DNA of 54,690 nt from a virus, in the IMG/VR virus record IMGVR_UViG_3300027859_000020, positions 1-54,690 of that record; one strand, given 5' to 3'. How positions within the stretch are numbered: position 1 is the stretch's first letter; each line of letters starts with the position of its first letter. A model generated the notes under the pieces. The model worked only from the letters and a program-made list of their open reading frames with translations. It had not been told where the DNA came from and did not search any database. Below are positions 1 through 5,479 of the stretch, in pieces. The position numbers and the translations under genes were made by a program.

Positions 1-1693
1 GCCCACCACCCTTGGATCGAGTGTGTGGATTTTCTTCTGGTATGATTATTTCTTTACCATGTAATACTGCAAGATAACCTGTATCAGGACCGTCAAAGAC
101 ACCACCGACCATTCCGCCTGGTGGTGGTGATCCCACTTCCTTATATATTTTATTTAAGAATTTTTCAATTCTTGGCACTGATGAAGAACTTCTTGGCACC
201 TCCCCCTTCTGACTCAAAACTCTCAACTCTCTGAATATATCATCAAGTTCTGTTTTAGTCATTTTCATGACTTTACTATTCATCATGTCGCTCATCACAT
301 CTTTAAATGCAGTTACTGTTTTTTTGAATTGTTCTGCATTCATATTCTCTGGAATTGTACCTTGTCGAAATGCTCTTGAGATTATCTGAAGGATACCATC
401 TATCTCTTGAGTATCTCTATAAACTTGTCCCTCACCCTTAAACATATCTTTTACATTTTTTTTATCCAAAAACTCTTGAAATTTATTAGATACTTTCTTA
501 TCAAGTTTACTAGAAGTTTTTATTGGTTTAATTCTTATAAATTTGAACATTTTAGCAAGCATTTCACTTTTCCGTTCTTGCTTTAATATTTTATTACTTT
601 CTCTAATTAATTGACCTTTCCTACTAAGTTGTGGATTGAAACTTCTACCAAAGTTTTTCTTGAATGCCCTTGCCATCCTTTCAGTTAAAGTTTCAGGTTT
701 GATCTTCGATGCATCTTTACTGAATTGTAAGAATTTAGATCCAGTTCTTGCTTTTTTACTCTTCAAAACATTTGCCAGAACTTTCTTTATACCAGCTTTT
801 TTACCAGCAGCAGCTGGGAATAGAATAATAGCAGCATCAAATAGAGTGTCAACAATTTTCATCAAAGCATTTGGTCTATTTTTTACTGGTACCCCTTCAG
901 TAGATTTTCTTATTCGCTCTGCTATAATTTTTTCTTCTTCTTCTTGCTCTCTAAATCTTGGTGCTTTCTTCTCAAACTTATTCAAAACTATCTCAAATTT
1001 GTCTAAATTTTCACCAAATAAAGTGCTTTGTTGTCTTGTTCTTTCCTCTTCTTGTATCCTCCTGAAGTCCGAACCTGCTCTCAATGTATTTTGACCATAT
1101 AATCTATCAAATAAGTTACCACCAGCCAAACCACCTAATGCTCCACCCAATACTCCACCCACTGCAGTACCAACACCAGGTAATATTGCTGTACCTAAAA
1201 GTGCTCCTATCTTAGCACCTCCAGCAAATCCACCCAAACCTGCTAGTGCACCACCACCAGCCTGTAGGTTGCTCTGACCTGATTGTTTCCTAGCAAAGAA
1301 GTCTAATCCTGTTGATGCTATTGCTAGAGGTCCTATTCTACCAAACTTTGATAGACTCTTTCCTAAAGGACCTTTTGGTAATTTTGGAACATTACCACTA
1401 CCACCACGTCCTCCTCCACCACCAAATCTTCTTATTACTTTACCTGTTCCTCCTAATCCTAATGCACCAATCAGAACATCAGTAAGTCCACCTTTCTTAC
1501 CTTTGCCCCCTAATTCTTTAGAAAGAGCAGAAAAAGTGTCTTCTCTTAATCTTTGTAGTTTTTCTTCTTCTTTATATAATTTTGCTCTTGCTATATTATT
1601 AATTATGTTACTACGCCTCATAGTTGAAGCGAGCATAGATGACTCCCTATCTGCAATATCTGCAACCTTTACTAACTTTCTTACGTCTATCAT
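1..1693 (-). CDS. Tape-measure-like tail protein, 3' end cut by the window
   Basis: The reading frame is open from ATG (1693-1691) to base 1, 564 codons, so the C-terminus is missing. The N-terminal ~60 residues are charged and probably coiled. Residues ~120-190 form a Gly/Ala-rich hydrophobic stretch, and a Lys-rich helical region follows. Near the cut end is a PPPGG segment and a GYLAVLHGKEIIIP motif, which resembles the 'LHGGEAVVP' signature found near the end of many tape measure proteins. It overlaps the upstream gene by four bases (ATGA). Its place after gp26 and gp51, the usual place of tape measure chaperones, supports the call. It could instead be another virion protein with hydrophobic patches, because cyanophages carry several of these next to gp51. 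Confidence 0.55.
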   Translation of the reverse strand, partial: MIDVRKLVKVADIADRESSMLASTMRRSNIINNIARAKLYKEEEKLQRLREDTFSALSKELGGKGKKGGLTDVLIGALGLGGTGKVIRRFGGGGGRGGSGNVPKLPKGPLGKSLSKFGRIGPLAIASTGLDFFARKQSGQSNLQAGGGALAGLGGFAGGAKIGALLGTAILPGVGTAVGGVLGGALGGLAGGNLFDRLYGQNTLRAGSDFRRIQEEERTRQQSTLFGENLDKFEIVLNKFEKKAPRFREQEEEEKIIAERIRKSTEGVPVKNRPNALMKIVDTLFDAAIILFPAAAGKKAGIKKVLANVLKSKKARTGSKFLQFSKDASKIKPETLTERMARAFKKNFGRSFNPQLSRKGQLIRESNKILKQERKSEMLAKMFKFIRIKPIKTSSKLDKKVSNKFQEFLDKKNVKDMFKGEGQVYRDTQEIDGILQIISRAFRQGTIPENMNAEQFKKTVTAFKDVMSDMMNSKVMKMTKTELDDIFRELRVLSQKGEVPRSSSSVPRIEKFLNKIYKEVGSPPPGGMVGGVFDGPDTGYLAVLHGKEIIIPEENPHTRSKGGG

Positions 1694-3123
1694 CTGTTTA
1701 TATTGAGTAGTAATCTATTCACAAACTTATCTACACTACCCCTAAATTCAACATCTACTGAAGGATCAGAGACACCTGAATCAGTTTCTTCTATCGCACC
1801 ATCGTCTTGGTAAGATGGAATTTCATCTTGAATAATTGGTATGAATACATTTTGTCCATTAAACTCAGGAGCATCATCGAGATTTTTTTTAGTTATAGTT
1901 TTTAAAGACTTCCTATTAAAACTACTGGCAACTAATCCTAATTCATCATCTCTTGTCGTTGGCATAACTTCATTCCCCATGATACCCAAAAAGTTTATCA
2001 ACGTATTATCCATATCTTCACGTTTTTTGCTACCAAAAATTGATTTGAAGTCGAGTTGACCATCATTACTCATCTTCAAGGTATTAGATACATTTTTTGA
2101 GTTGACTTTAGATTCATTTTCACCTGGCAATACACCACCATCTTTTAGAAATTCATCAAGAGTTCCCGCTTTCGCTTCTTGTGGTCTGAATAATTTCTTT
2201 ATACCCTCGAATATAGTGCCAAAAATTTGAAAGTTATCTTTACTTTCTTGCATTAGCTCTTCATCAGATTTGAAGAAATCCATTGTTCCCTTGAATGGAT
2301 TAAGAAGTGATAAAAAATCTGCTATTTGATTTTGAATATTCAATCTACCTTCCTTATCTCTTCCCTCTGCATCTCTACCATCTGCAAAAAATCCGTCGGA
2401 GTCTGGAGTATCATCTGTTGCAATGTCTAGGTTTGATATTTCCTGATTTACATTCTTTTTCCTTCTTTCACCACCTCCCATTCCATCAAGTATTCTCTCG
2501 AACCTATCTAATTGTGCACCAAATCTATCAGTATCACCAGAACTTATAATATTCTTCCTTGTTCTTCTAACACCTTGCTCTCTTCTAAATTCTGCTGTTG
2601 GTGCATTACTCTGATTATTTCTCCCTGCTCCCATTAAGAGTGGTGCCAATGCTAATAAAGGTAATGCCAAGAGACCTGCCTTACCTTTTGGCATACCGCC
2701 ACCTACACCGCCACCCAGTAATCCTTTAGTAGCAAGACCACCAACTACTATTTTTGATGTTATATCAATAATTTCAGGTATAAACGCTGCAACTGCTACA
2801 CCAGTATCTTGCAGTCCACCACCAATATTACCTTGAGAAAATTGTCTTAGTGCTGATGCACCAGAAGCAGCACCTATAATAGTTCTTAGATTGAATGTTG
2901 CTGCCCTAAGACCTGTAAGTGAAGACTCCTCTTTCTTTAATAATTTTGCTCTTTTCTCTTCAAACTTTCCCCTGTCTCTTATATCTGCTCTAAATTCATT
3001 TCTAAGTTGAATCAAATTCTTATTGACTTTCTCCAAATTCAATGAAGTTTTTGCACTACTCATCCTAGCAGTGGCTGAATCCACCATGCTTGTTCTTGAT
3101 GTAACGCTACCAGGAGTTTGCAT
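1690..3123 (-). CDS. Gly-rich putative tail structural protein
   Basis: 477 residues. The first ~75 residues are charged and helical. Residues ~80-170 are hydrophobic and Gly/Ala-rich (IIGAASGASAL, GLLGGGVGGG, LLALPLLALAPLLMGAG), and the rest is acidic, polar and low in complexity. No catalytic motif is visible. The gene lies between gp51 and the tape-measure-like gene, overlapping gp51 by 17 bases and the next gene by four, so all are probably cotranslated. The layout resembles its downstream neighbour (charged N-terminus, hydrophobic patch, polar tail), so the two may be related or work together inside the tail. The exact role is unknown. Confidence 0.55.
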   Translation of the reverse strand: MQTPGSVTSRTSMVDSATARMSSAKTSLNLEKVNKNLIQLRNEFRADIRDRGKFEEKRAKLLKKEESSLTGLRAATFNLRTIIGAASGASALRQFSQGNIGGGLQDTGVAVAAFIPEIIDITSKIVVGGLATKGLLGGGVGGGMPKGKAGLLALPLLALAPLLMGAGRNNQSNAPTAEFRREQGVRRTRKNIISSGDTDRFGAQLDRFERILDGMGGGERRKKNVNQEISNLDIATDDTPDSDGFFADGRDAEGRDKEGRLNIQNQIADFLSLLNPFKGTMDFFKSDEELMQESKDNFQIFGTIFEGIKKLFRPQEAKAGTLDEFLKDGGVLPGENESKVNSKNVSNTLKMSNDGQLDFKSIFGSKKREDMDNTLINFLGIMGNEVMPTTRDDELGLVASSFNRKSLKTITKKNLDDAPEFNGQNVFIPIIQDEIPSYQDDGAIEETDSGVSDPSVDVEFRGSVDKFVNRLLLNINR

Positions 3124-3298
3124 TCTGTGCTTGTTTTGCCTCTAAGTTCTTCTTCTCTATGTAATTAGATAGAAGAGTAATATATATTTCACGTTCAAAA
3201 GGAATCATATCTTCTATTTCAGTAAGACTCCAGTCATGATGCTGCATTAATGAGAAATTAGACTCATAATAGCTGTCAAGACTTGTATGATATAGCAT
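3107..3298 (-). CDS. 51: Baseplate hub assembly catalyst gp51-like
   Basis: 63 residues. The core ...HDWSLTEIEDMIPFEREIYITLL... matches the short protein called gp51 in T4-like cyanophages; a Trp-Ser-Leu followed by 'pFEReiY' also recalls the T part of tail assembly chaperones. The ATG overlaps the gp26 stop in TAATG, so translation is coupled. The frame lies -1 relative to gp26, and a slippery heptamer (3313-3307) sits nine to fifteen bases before the start, so it may also be made as a gp26-gp51 fusion. The C-terminus is Lys/Gln/Asn-rich. The family match is reasonable, but the biochemical role of gp51 is poorly known. Confidence 0.65.
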   Translation of the reverse strand: MLYHTSLDSYYESNFSLMQHHDWSLTEIEDMIPFEREIYITLLSNYIEKKNLEAKQAQNANSW

Positions 3299-4026
3299 TA
3301 TGCGAAAAAATTTGATAAACCCTCAATTACAACTTCAGATTCAACATCTGTTTTTGGGTTTTTGACTGTAGATTTATACTGCAGTCTAGGCATAGTAGTA
3401 AAGAAACTTTCAATTTTAGCAAATTGCTGAGAATTCAGTGATTCGATAAAACCAATCAATTCTTTCTTTGTGCAGTCACTTGCTGACCATGCCTCTTCCT
3501 CAGTAAAAACTTGATCTATGCAATCTGCCACAGACTCAAATGCCTTATCTATTCTCTTTTGGTTTGTTTCCTCTGGAGGTGTGATAAAGTTATTTTCAAG
3601 GAATTGTTGCATGGATGGATATTTCATCTTGATAGAAATACCACCACCTATGTCGATTGTATCATCATGACCATCAGGTATATGCAATTTGATGTCAGAT
3701 AAACCAATAGTAACTGGTACTGTTGTTTCTCCGTCATCTTGACATGTCACAATTAGGTCAACAGTTTCCCCAACTGATTTTCCTCTGACATTCAAAAACA
3801 GGTATTCAAGATCAAATGATGGTAAATCATCTATCTTTACTCTTGACATCATACAACCCTTCAATACATTTTTGATAGTTGCAGTGATATCCTTTTCAGT
3901 TCCATTTTCCATAGCAATGAGAAGTGCCTTCTCCTCCTTTACGAGGAATGGGCGATACTTTATTGCTTTTTGAGATGATATAAGATTCAGTTCAAATGTT
4001 GGTGCTACGACCTTTGGTAAAGGCAT
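3298..4026 (-). CDS. 26: Baseplate hub subunit gp26
   Basis: 242 residues. It is the T4 baseplate gp26 family (PF12322): an N-terminal MPLPKVVAPTFELNL and IKYRPFLVKEEKALLIAME block, a central FDLEYLFLNVRGKSVGE motif, and a C-terminal block GFIESLNSQQFAKIESFF...MPRL. T4 gp26 has about 208 residues. A late-type promoter (CTAAATAA) lies 18 bases before the ATG. The last codons TCA AAT TTT TTC contain a -1 slippery heptamer before the stop, and gp51 follows in the -1 frame. Family assignment is secure. A role as a tape measure chaperone rather than a hub structural part is inference from gene order. Confidence 0.85.
   Translation of the reverse strand: MPLPKVVAPTFELNLISSQKAIKYRPFLVKEEKALLIAMENGTEKDITATIKNVLKGCMMSRVKIDDLPSFDLEYLFLNVRGKSVGETVDLIVTCQDDGETTVPVTIGLSDIKLHIPDGHDDTIDIGGGISIKMKYPSMQQFLENNFITPPEETNQKRIDKAFESVADCIDQVFTEEEAWSASDCTKKELIGFIESLNSQQFAKIESFFTTMPRLQYKSTVKNPKTDVESEVVIEGLSNFFA
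3307..3313 (-). other. Candidate -1 ribosomal frameshift site between gp26 and gp51
   Basis: On the minus strand, gp26 ends with codons TCA AAT TTT TTC GCA TAA. The heptamer A AAT TTT fits the X XXY YYZ slippery rule in the gp26 frame. A -1 slip continues through TTT CGC ATA and then reads the gp51 ATG in frame, giving one fused protein. No clear stimulatory hairpin was identified. Seen in sequence; function inferred. Confidence 0.4.
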
Positions 4027-4056: not shown

Positions 4057-5016
4057 TCAGTCCCTGCTCATATTTGCATTATAGAACCCCTTACCTATGT
4101 CTTCAACAGGAGTTCCCATAAACTTATCTCCATTTAAGATTCTTGAGTTGGTTGACACTTTCTCTGGTGGTTCGCTTGTTGGTTTTATTAAGGTGTTACT
4201 CAATAGTTGAGGACTTGATATAATGCCAGGATCTCTCATATTCTTAGGTGGATTGTCGGATATTGCTAATACACTTCCTGATCTCGATGTTCTATCTACA
4301 AAGAAATTATCAATCTTGAACACAATAGTGGTCTTAATCAATTGTGCAGTGCCATATGCTAGTGGTGATGCCACTATGTTTATAGGAAAAGCATTTTGAC
4401 AATAGTAAGTTATACTACTTGGTGTTCTAATAACAGGAAACACCTGCTGTTTCTCTAGTCTTTGATGTTCTCTAAAAACATCATTACTAAAAGCTGTGAT
4501 TTCAATCTCACACTTATACTCGTCTGGATATTTTAGTCTTCTATATGATGCTTTTTCATTTCTTCTTTGTTGTGTGTTCGCACCAAATGTTCCATTAGCC
4601 ACTCTTGTTGGACTTATATACTCTAACCATGCATTGAATACATCATTAGTATAGTAGTCTTTTTGAGAAAAGAATGTAAGAGTCAAATCAGTCATCTTTC
4701 TCATGACACCAACCTGTGTCATCATACCTTGTCTAAGACCAGGTATTTCTTGTGCCTGAATAGATGAACCTGGTAATACTGCTTCTGAGCAGAATAATCT
4801 AAGGTAGTCTCCTATATCCGAATCTTGATTCTGATCGTAAAAACCATGCTGGTTGATAAACCCTAGTAAACCCCTAGCACCCCTAAAGTTGATATAAACG
4901 TCATATGAGTTGTTAAATGCAGGTACAATATTTCCAAACTTCGAGTCAGTCTTATGCAACATCTCCGTTGGGAGATGCTGTTTCTGTCTCATTAATACAT
5001 CTGCTAATCTTGCCAT
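4057..5016 (-). CDS. 54: Baseplate-tail tube initiator gp54
   Basis: 319 residues, against about 320 for T4 gp54. The start MARLADVLMRQKQHLPTEML, the segment SEAVLPGSSIQAQEIPGLRQGMM and the following MTDLTLTFFSQKDYYTNDVFN match gp54/gp48-type proteins, which share the tail tube (gp19) fold. gp54 caps the baseplate and starts tube polymerisation. It is divergent from gp4 with only 28 bases between the two start codons. The tail tube cap gp48 is a separate gene (5885-7426), and length favours gp54 for this one. The name gp48 is the only real alternative. Confidence 0.75.
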   Translation of the reverse strand: MARLADVLMRQKQHLPTEMLHKTDSKFGNIVPAFNNSYDVYINFRGARGLLGFINQHGFYDQNQDSDIGDYLRLFCSEAVLPGSSIQAQEIPGLRQGMMTQVGVMRKMTDLTLTFFSQKDYYTNDVFNAWLEYISPTRVANGTFGANTQQRRNEKASYRRLKYPDEYKCEIEITAFSNDVFREHQRLEKQQVFPVIRTPSSITYYCQNAFPINIVASPLAYGTAQLIKTTIVFKIDNFFVDRTSRSGSVLAISDNPPKNMRDPGIISSPQLLSNTLIKPTSEPPEKVSTNSRILNGDKFMGTPVEDIGKGFYNANMSRD

Positions 5017-5044: not shown

Positions 5045-5479
5045 ATGTCTTATAAAGGCAAATTCAGACCATCAAAACCTAAGAAATATAAAGGTGATCC
5101 CACTAATATAGTATATAGGTCACTTTGGGAACTAAAATTCATGCGGTATTGTGACAGCAACAACAATATCGTCAAATGGTCTAGCGAAGAAATTGTTATT
5201 CCTTATAGATCTCCATTAGATAATCGTTTTCATAGATACTTCCCAGATTTTTATCTAAAGTACAAAAATAATTCAGGAAAGGTCGTTGAAAAGGTTATAG
5301 AAATAAAACCAGCAAAACAGGTGCAAGAACCAAAAATACAAAAAAGAAGAACTAAGAGGTATGTGACTGAAGTTGTGAACTATGCTAAAAATCAAGCAAA
5401 ATGGGAAGCAGCAGAAGAGTTTTGTAAGGATAGGAGATGGCAATTTCAAATACTAACGGAGAAAGAACTTGGAATTTAG
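5045..5479 (+). CDS. 4: Head completion protein gp4 (gp50/gp65), nuclease-fold
   Basis: 144 residues, T4 gp4 about 150. The motifs YRSLWELKFMRYCD, IPYRSPLDNRFHRYFPDFYLKY and KVIEIKPAKQ give the E...PD...EIKP pattern of the TnsA-like PD-(D/E)XK endonuclease fold that this family shares. gp4 completes packaged heads before tail joining. First gene of a four-gene plus-strand cluster (gp4, unknown, gp48, gp53) surrounded by minus-strand genes. The initiator ATG follows ACCAAGAAA, a weak ribosome site. Whether the nuclease centre cuts DNA is not known for the family. Confidence 0.85.
   Translation: MSYKGKFRPSKPKKYKGDPTNIVYRSLWELKFMRYCDSNNNIVKWSSEEIVIPYRSPLDNRFHRYFPDFYLKYKNNSGKVVEKVIEIKPAKQVQEPKIQKRRTKRYVTEVVNYAKNQAKWEAAEEFCKDRRWQFQILTEKELGI

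Follow-up and report, generated by a model that had tools for sequence, protein, structure and literature searches.

The -1 frameshift of phage lambda G/GT was reportedly described by Xu, Hendrix and Duda in 2004, and its slippery sequence differs from the one at the locus considered here. As is proposed below for that locus, lambda makes a short and a long tail assembly chaperone from one cistron by -1 slippage; according to a 2016 review, G-T frameshifting is widely conserved among phages with long tails, T4 being the exception (PMC5009743). For T4-like phages, gp26 and gp51 have been published as tail assembly chaperones (Vladimirov, Gautam and Davidson 2022, Virology 566:9-15, as relayed in PMC10885494 and PMC12846349), and poly-T signals closing the short gene are cited for this group. 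As far as these accounts go, the T4-like chaperones resemble the proteins described here in belonging to PF12322 and PHROG 150 and in having short and long forms. T4 gp26 and gp51 have also been listed as hub assembly chaperones, with gp51 absent from the final particle (PMC3004832).

A further parallel is the tail assembly chaperone (TAC) locus of the Vandenendeviridae and Andersonviridae, as in phage Adele, where a -1 open frame was likewise wrongly annotated as a separate gene, although the phage families are different and the motif is GTTTTT rather than T TTT TTC (PMC12846349). A literature search on ribosomal frameshifting in cyanophage baseplate genes returned no paper on the gp26/gp51 locus in cyanophages, and no frameshift or ribosomal slippage mark was present in any public record examined. 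In public cyanophage records gp51 appears as a separate 'baseplate hub assembly catalyst', appears as a hypothetical protein, or is omitted.

Gene order and the gp26–gp51 junction

The stretch of DNA analysed here, from a T4-like marine virus (IMG/VR record IMGVR_UViG_3300027859_000020, positions 1 to 54,690; hereafter the window), carries on its minus strand, in this order, a tail tube protein (4057..5016), a gp26 homologue directly downstream of it (3298..4026), gp51 (3107..3298 as annotated from its ATG) and a 477-aa ORF that overlaps the gp51 end (1690..3123). The tail tube protein is clear by both Pfam and PHROGs (PF23849, E 7e-13; PHROG 45, E 1e-22). The gp26 protein (242 aa, 27.1 kDa) belongs over the whole domain to the T4 gp26–gp51 family, matching PF12322 at E 3.9e-68 (domain positions 2-219 of 219) and PHROG 150 at E 1e-74, and it is the single PF12322 copy on the contig. 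The gp51 protein matches PHROG 634 (E 2.8e-26) and also, at positions 240-277 of 282, the tail of PHROG 150, the profile of the gp26 family; this indicates that some family members carry both parts fused. On the plus strand, at 5045-5479, lies a head-closure (gp4-type) protein with a strong match to a TnsA-like nuclease N-domain (PF08722, E 7.5e-24).

The junction reads ATT GAG GGT TTA TCA AAT TTT TTC GCA TAA TGC on the minus strand. As the original prediction had it, the gp26 frame ends TCA AAT TTT TTC GCA TAA with an in-phase A AAT TTT (3307..3313, minus strand), and gp51 occupies the -1 frame; this frame stays open over the junction, from 22 nt ahead of the gp26 stop through 191 nt past it. 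A second heptamer, T TTT TTC (3304..3310, minus strand), overlaps the first, is also in gp26 phase and has its first base 10 nt ahead of the stop. Slippage at either heptamer would be expected to give the identical fusion protein, calculated at 306 aa and 34.9 kDa, in agreement with the size of about 35 kDa first proposed. The likely products are thus a 27 kDa short tail assembly chaperone (TAC-N), which is gp26 itself, and a 35 kDa long one (TAC-NC), whose C-terminal part would be the -1 frame extension (3107..3304, minus strand; PHROG 634; collinear with the T4 gp51 C-terminus). The predicted junction peptides in the window are TDVESEVVIEGLSNFFR for the fusion, joined to the extension, and TDVESEVVIEGLSNFFA for the gp26 end.

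Conservation of the slippery run and its probable stimulators

Relatives were collected as a first set of 80 loci related to the window gp26 (81 sequences with the window), and this set was widened by querying with gp26 or gp51 proteins from P-HM1, phiM12, Vibrio PG216, Aeromonas phiAS5, T4 and a Salmonella ackermannvirus. The loci were retrieved by patterns inside gp26 and not at the junction, and conservation of the heptamer is therefore not circular. The 246 relatives counted below are the whole set minus the Tevenvirinae (T4-type), the Ackermannviridae and phage IME-SM1; reduced at <85% nucleotide identity, they form 149 clusters, which are still related by descent and are not phylogenetically independent.

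T TTT TTC occupies the same place in all 81 sequences of the first set, in phase with gp26 and 10 nt ahead of the stop. Across the wider set an in-phase T TTT TTN, and hence a conserved XXXYYYZ heptamer within the overlap, stands at the gp26 end in 246/246 relatives and 149/149 clusters (TTTTTTC in 135 clusters, TTTTTTT in 7, TTTTTTA in 6 and TTTTTTG in 1); no synonymous interruption of the T run was seen in the 246 relatives, and the -1 frame is open as far as the gp51 core in all of them. The alignment of junctions that had been suggested as a check thus bears out the constant -1 frame and a slippery heptamer, but not the heptamer originally named: only 20/246 loci (16/149 clusters) retain A AAT TTT, which was rejected as incidental, and the comparison identifies T TTT TTC as the working site.

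Might the T run be kept merely by a Phe-Phe requirement in AT-rich genomes? TTT makes up 69% of the Phe codons in these genes, and a Phe pair or its equivalent is widespread. The first T of the heptamer, however, is the wobble base of a preceding codon whose residue varies (Ser, Asn, Asp, Ala, Gly, Thr or His), and this codon ends in T in 149/149 clusters, against about 93 expected from synonymous usage. Such a requirement would also leave the constant -1 phase, the upstream element and the hairpins described below unexplained, and we regard it as hardly credible.

The window carries the Shine–Dalgarno (SD)-like sequence GAGGG 9 nt upstream of the heptamer (3320..3324, minus strand), where it is probably a frameshift stimulator. 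An AGGG, GGAG or GAGG lying wholly within 5-19 nt upstream of the heptamer occurs in 113/149 clusters, compared with 56 +/- 6 under a synonymous-codon null, and its end is nearly always 8 or 9 nt before the heptamer. The enrichment is also evident within a single kind of codon pair, as Glu-Gly pairs are written with AGGG in 104/126 cases at the site versus 24/75 elsewhere in gp26 (Fisher p 7e-13). Downstream, 70-nt folds have a mean z of -2.05 versus -0.86 in control windows, and a strong stem begins within 12 nt in 44% of clusters, whereas nine control windows give 4-9%. These hairpins are lineage-specific; one stem, of the GTATGGCTCA...TGAGTCATAC type, can pair fully or almost fully in 23 clusters, a number that drops to 0-1 once the partner is shifted by 1-6 positions. 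In the window itself the only such structure is a weak possible stem at the stimulator position (CATAATGCT / AGC-T-ATTATG; 3265..3302, minus strand; -7.2 kcal/mol), and its 70-nt downstream fold (z -0.19) is not clearly above chance, which counts against frameshifting there. The arrangement recalls Escherichia coli dnaX, in which an SD-like element about 10 nt upstream and a downstream hairpin stimulate -1 slippage, as appears to be the case here. Unlike the window, dnaX is a host gene with an A AAA AAG heptamer, and its product ends soon after the shift.

Start codons, exceptional relatives and the T4 paralogues

In the window the gp51 ATG overlaps the gp26 stop (TAATG, 3298), so coupled re-initiation could make free gp51, and this too counts against frameshifting. 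It is conceivable that gp51 is a separate protein made by such stop-start coupled translation after gp26, with no fusion at all; every examined record that annotates gp51 gives it as a separate gene, and in 95/149 clusters an in-frame ATG precedes the gp51 core. In 33/149 clusters, by contrast, the -1 frame offers no ATG, GTG or TTG from the heptamer up to the conserved gp51 core, and in 8 of these 33 a -1-frame stop abuts the heptamer or sits one codon upstream of it. Another 13/149 have only GTG or TTG available, and 8/149 could not be anchored in this census. Coupling has no need of the invariant T run or of the T-ending codon before it, and no SD-like sequence stands at initiation distance from the window ATG, the GAGGG being about 20 nt away. 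T4 gp51, moreover, is a zero-frame fusion, as described below. Taken together, these points make a separate gp51 without fusion very improbable.

A milder form of the same idea is that frameshifting makes the fusion while some free gp51 arises by re-initiation in the phages that keep an in-frame ATG, the window included. The ATGs just counted are what this would use, but they lack conservation and differ in position, no SD stands at a fitting distance, and a free extension would have no known function; we consider such a mixture unlikely, though less so than gp51 made by coupling with no fusion.

Relatives without a slippery site or with gp51 in another frame, which had been named as evidence that would speak against a frameshift, proved to be nearly absent. 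Only the Ackermannviridae relatives (L087, L089, L090, L093 and L269-L286) have no XXXYYYZ heptamer, which stands against frameshifting, but in them too the gp51-like extension always follows gp26 in -1 phase. Most of them share GA(A/G)ATTTTCAT(T/C)TAAT; some have TAATG, while in others no start is obvious, several having no ATG at all for the extension. In Stenotrophomonas phage IME-SM1 (L088:3226-3245) a run of five T puts gp51 in another frame. Phage Mendera has a canonical run of six at the same place (GAT TTT TTC GGC TGA TG; L287:1437-1455), and the IME-SM1 run is for this reason probably a homopolymer sequencing error; IME-SM1 was accordingly dropped as counter-evidence. The other records are likewise one base longer than IME-SM1 over this stretch, a comparison of total length and not of the bases at the run.

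T4 differs from the window in having two separate genes and no frameshift, where the window has one gene pair joined by -1 frameshifting. Genes 26 and 51 of T4 (L092:3803-5229) are paralogues on opposite strands. T4 gp26 (208 aa) is the PF12322 domain alone and stops at the junction; T4 gp51 (249 aa) has PF12322 at residues 1-201 (E 3.9e-52), continues into the extension in the same frame and spans PHROG 150 positions 13-280 of 282. In an alignment the T4 gp51 junction falls exactly over the -1 fusion of the window (GLSNFFRIMLYHTSLDSYYESNF) and over the fusions of PG216, phiAS5, phiM12 and P-SSM2, and T4 gp51 and the predicted fusion can be aligned over their whole lengths. Of the records searched for PF12322 (eight of named phages and two of other viruses), T4 alone has two copies. 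Comparison of the sequences thus identifies T4 as a phage without the frameshift that carries the short (gp26) and long (gp51) chaperones as two genes, a correction to the original proposal. The single-copy frameshifting arrangement was found in KVP40-type Vibrio and Aeromonas Straboviridae.

In a tree of the domains, the Tevenvirinae gp26 and gp51 are sister groups (97/95), with the frameshifting Straboviridae PG216 and phiAS5 on the other side of a midpoint root. This grouping agrees with a duplication in the ancestor of T4 that took the place of frameshifting. We somewhat favor a history in which frameshifting was ancestral throughout the T4-like supergroup and used a signal of three parts (SD-like element, T TTT TTN and a lineage-specific hairpin); it would have been replaced once, in the Tevenvirinae ancestor, when a duplication gave rise to the short gene 26 and to a long gene 51 in zero frame, while the Ackermannviridae would have kept the phase and express the long form by an unrecognised route.

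Proposed chaperone function and meaning for T4-like phages

The universal slippery run, the constant -1 phase, the missing gp51 starts, the SD-like element, the lineage-specific hairpins and the zero-frame T4 gp51 together support a -1 frameshift parallel to that of lambda G/GT, as was first suggested for the window. On this sequence evidence it is very probable that gp26 and 'gp51' are one cistron in two frames, joined by programmed -1 frameshifting. Most ribosomes would terminate at the gp26 TAA, yielding the short tail assembly chaperone. A presumed minority, with tRNA-Phe in the P and A sites on T TTT TTC, would slip back by one base, aided by the upstream GAGGG and, in many relatives, by the downstream hairpin; these ribosomes would continue through gp51 (...GLSNFF-RIMLYH...) and produce the long form of 35 kDa. 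If lambda gpG/gpGT is a guide, the short form would coat the tape measure protein, and the C-terminal extension of the long form may recruit tail tube subunits.

Tail assembly chaperone genes typically stand in the order seen here, with the tail tube gene first, then gp26 and gp51, and last a long variable ORF. In lambda, G/GT sits between the tail tube and tape measure genes; in the window the tail tube gene upstream is clear, and the tape measure gene is a candidate by position. The candidate is the 477-aa ORF, on the strength of its position, the size range of its counterparts (420-921 aa) and its hydrophobic segments. Identification by sequence was tried and dropped, as the ORF has no PHROG or Pfam match and profile comparisons with T4 gp29 and with the phiM12 and PG216 proteins were not significant. 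The ORF in the tape measure region of phiM12 matches tape measure PHROGs at E 1.8e-5. At the tape-measure position of P-HM1 (L083:2381-3696) the ORF is annotated as peptidase M15 and matches an endolysin PHROG; this may be a wall-hydrolase domain within a tape measure protein.

Confident AlphaFold models were obtained for gp26 (pLDDT 85) and a T4-type gp51 (pLDDT 88). Neither had a PDB match below E 0.001 (best Foldseek E 0.19), and the best score in a VIA fold comparison with solved structures was a Z of 4.8, under 5 and to an unrelated protein. No solved chaperone fold was thus matched, a point against the proposed reading. Among predicted structures, the T4-type gp51 model matches gp26 and gp51 of T4-like phages.

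The window frameshift is, as judged from comparative sequence data, a well-supported new instance of a principle already published in general form for T4-like phages, and the gain lies in the evidence and in correct annotation, not in a new principle. The frameshift reading supplies a precise junction peptide to look for. Rather than a separate protein, the 'gp51' annotated in hundreds of cyanophage genomes is probably the C-terminal portion of what the frameshift produces. The same reading brings T4 genes 26 and 51, labelled 'hub assembly', into the general tail assembly chaperone scheme, and would explain why T4 has been named as the exception to G/GT frameshifting.
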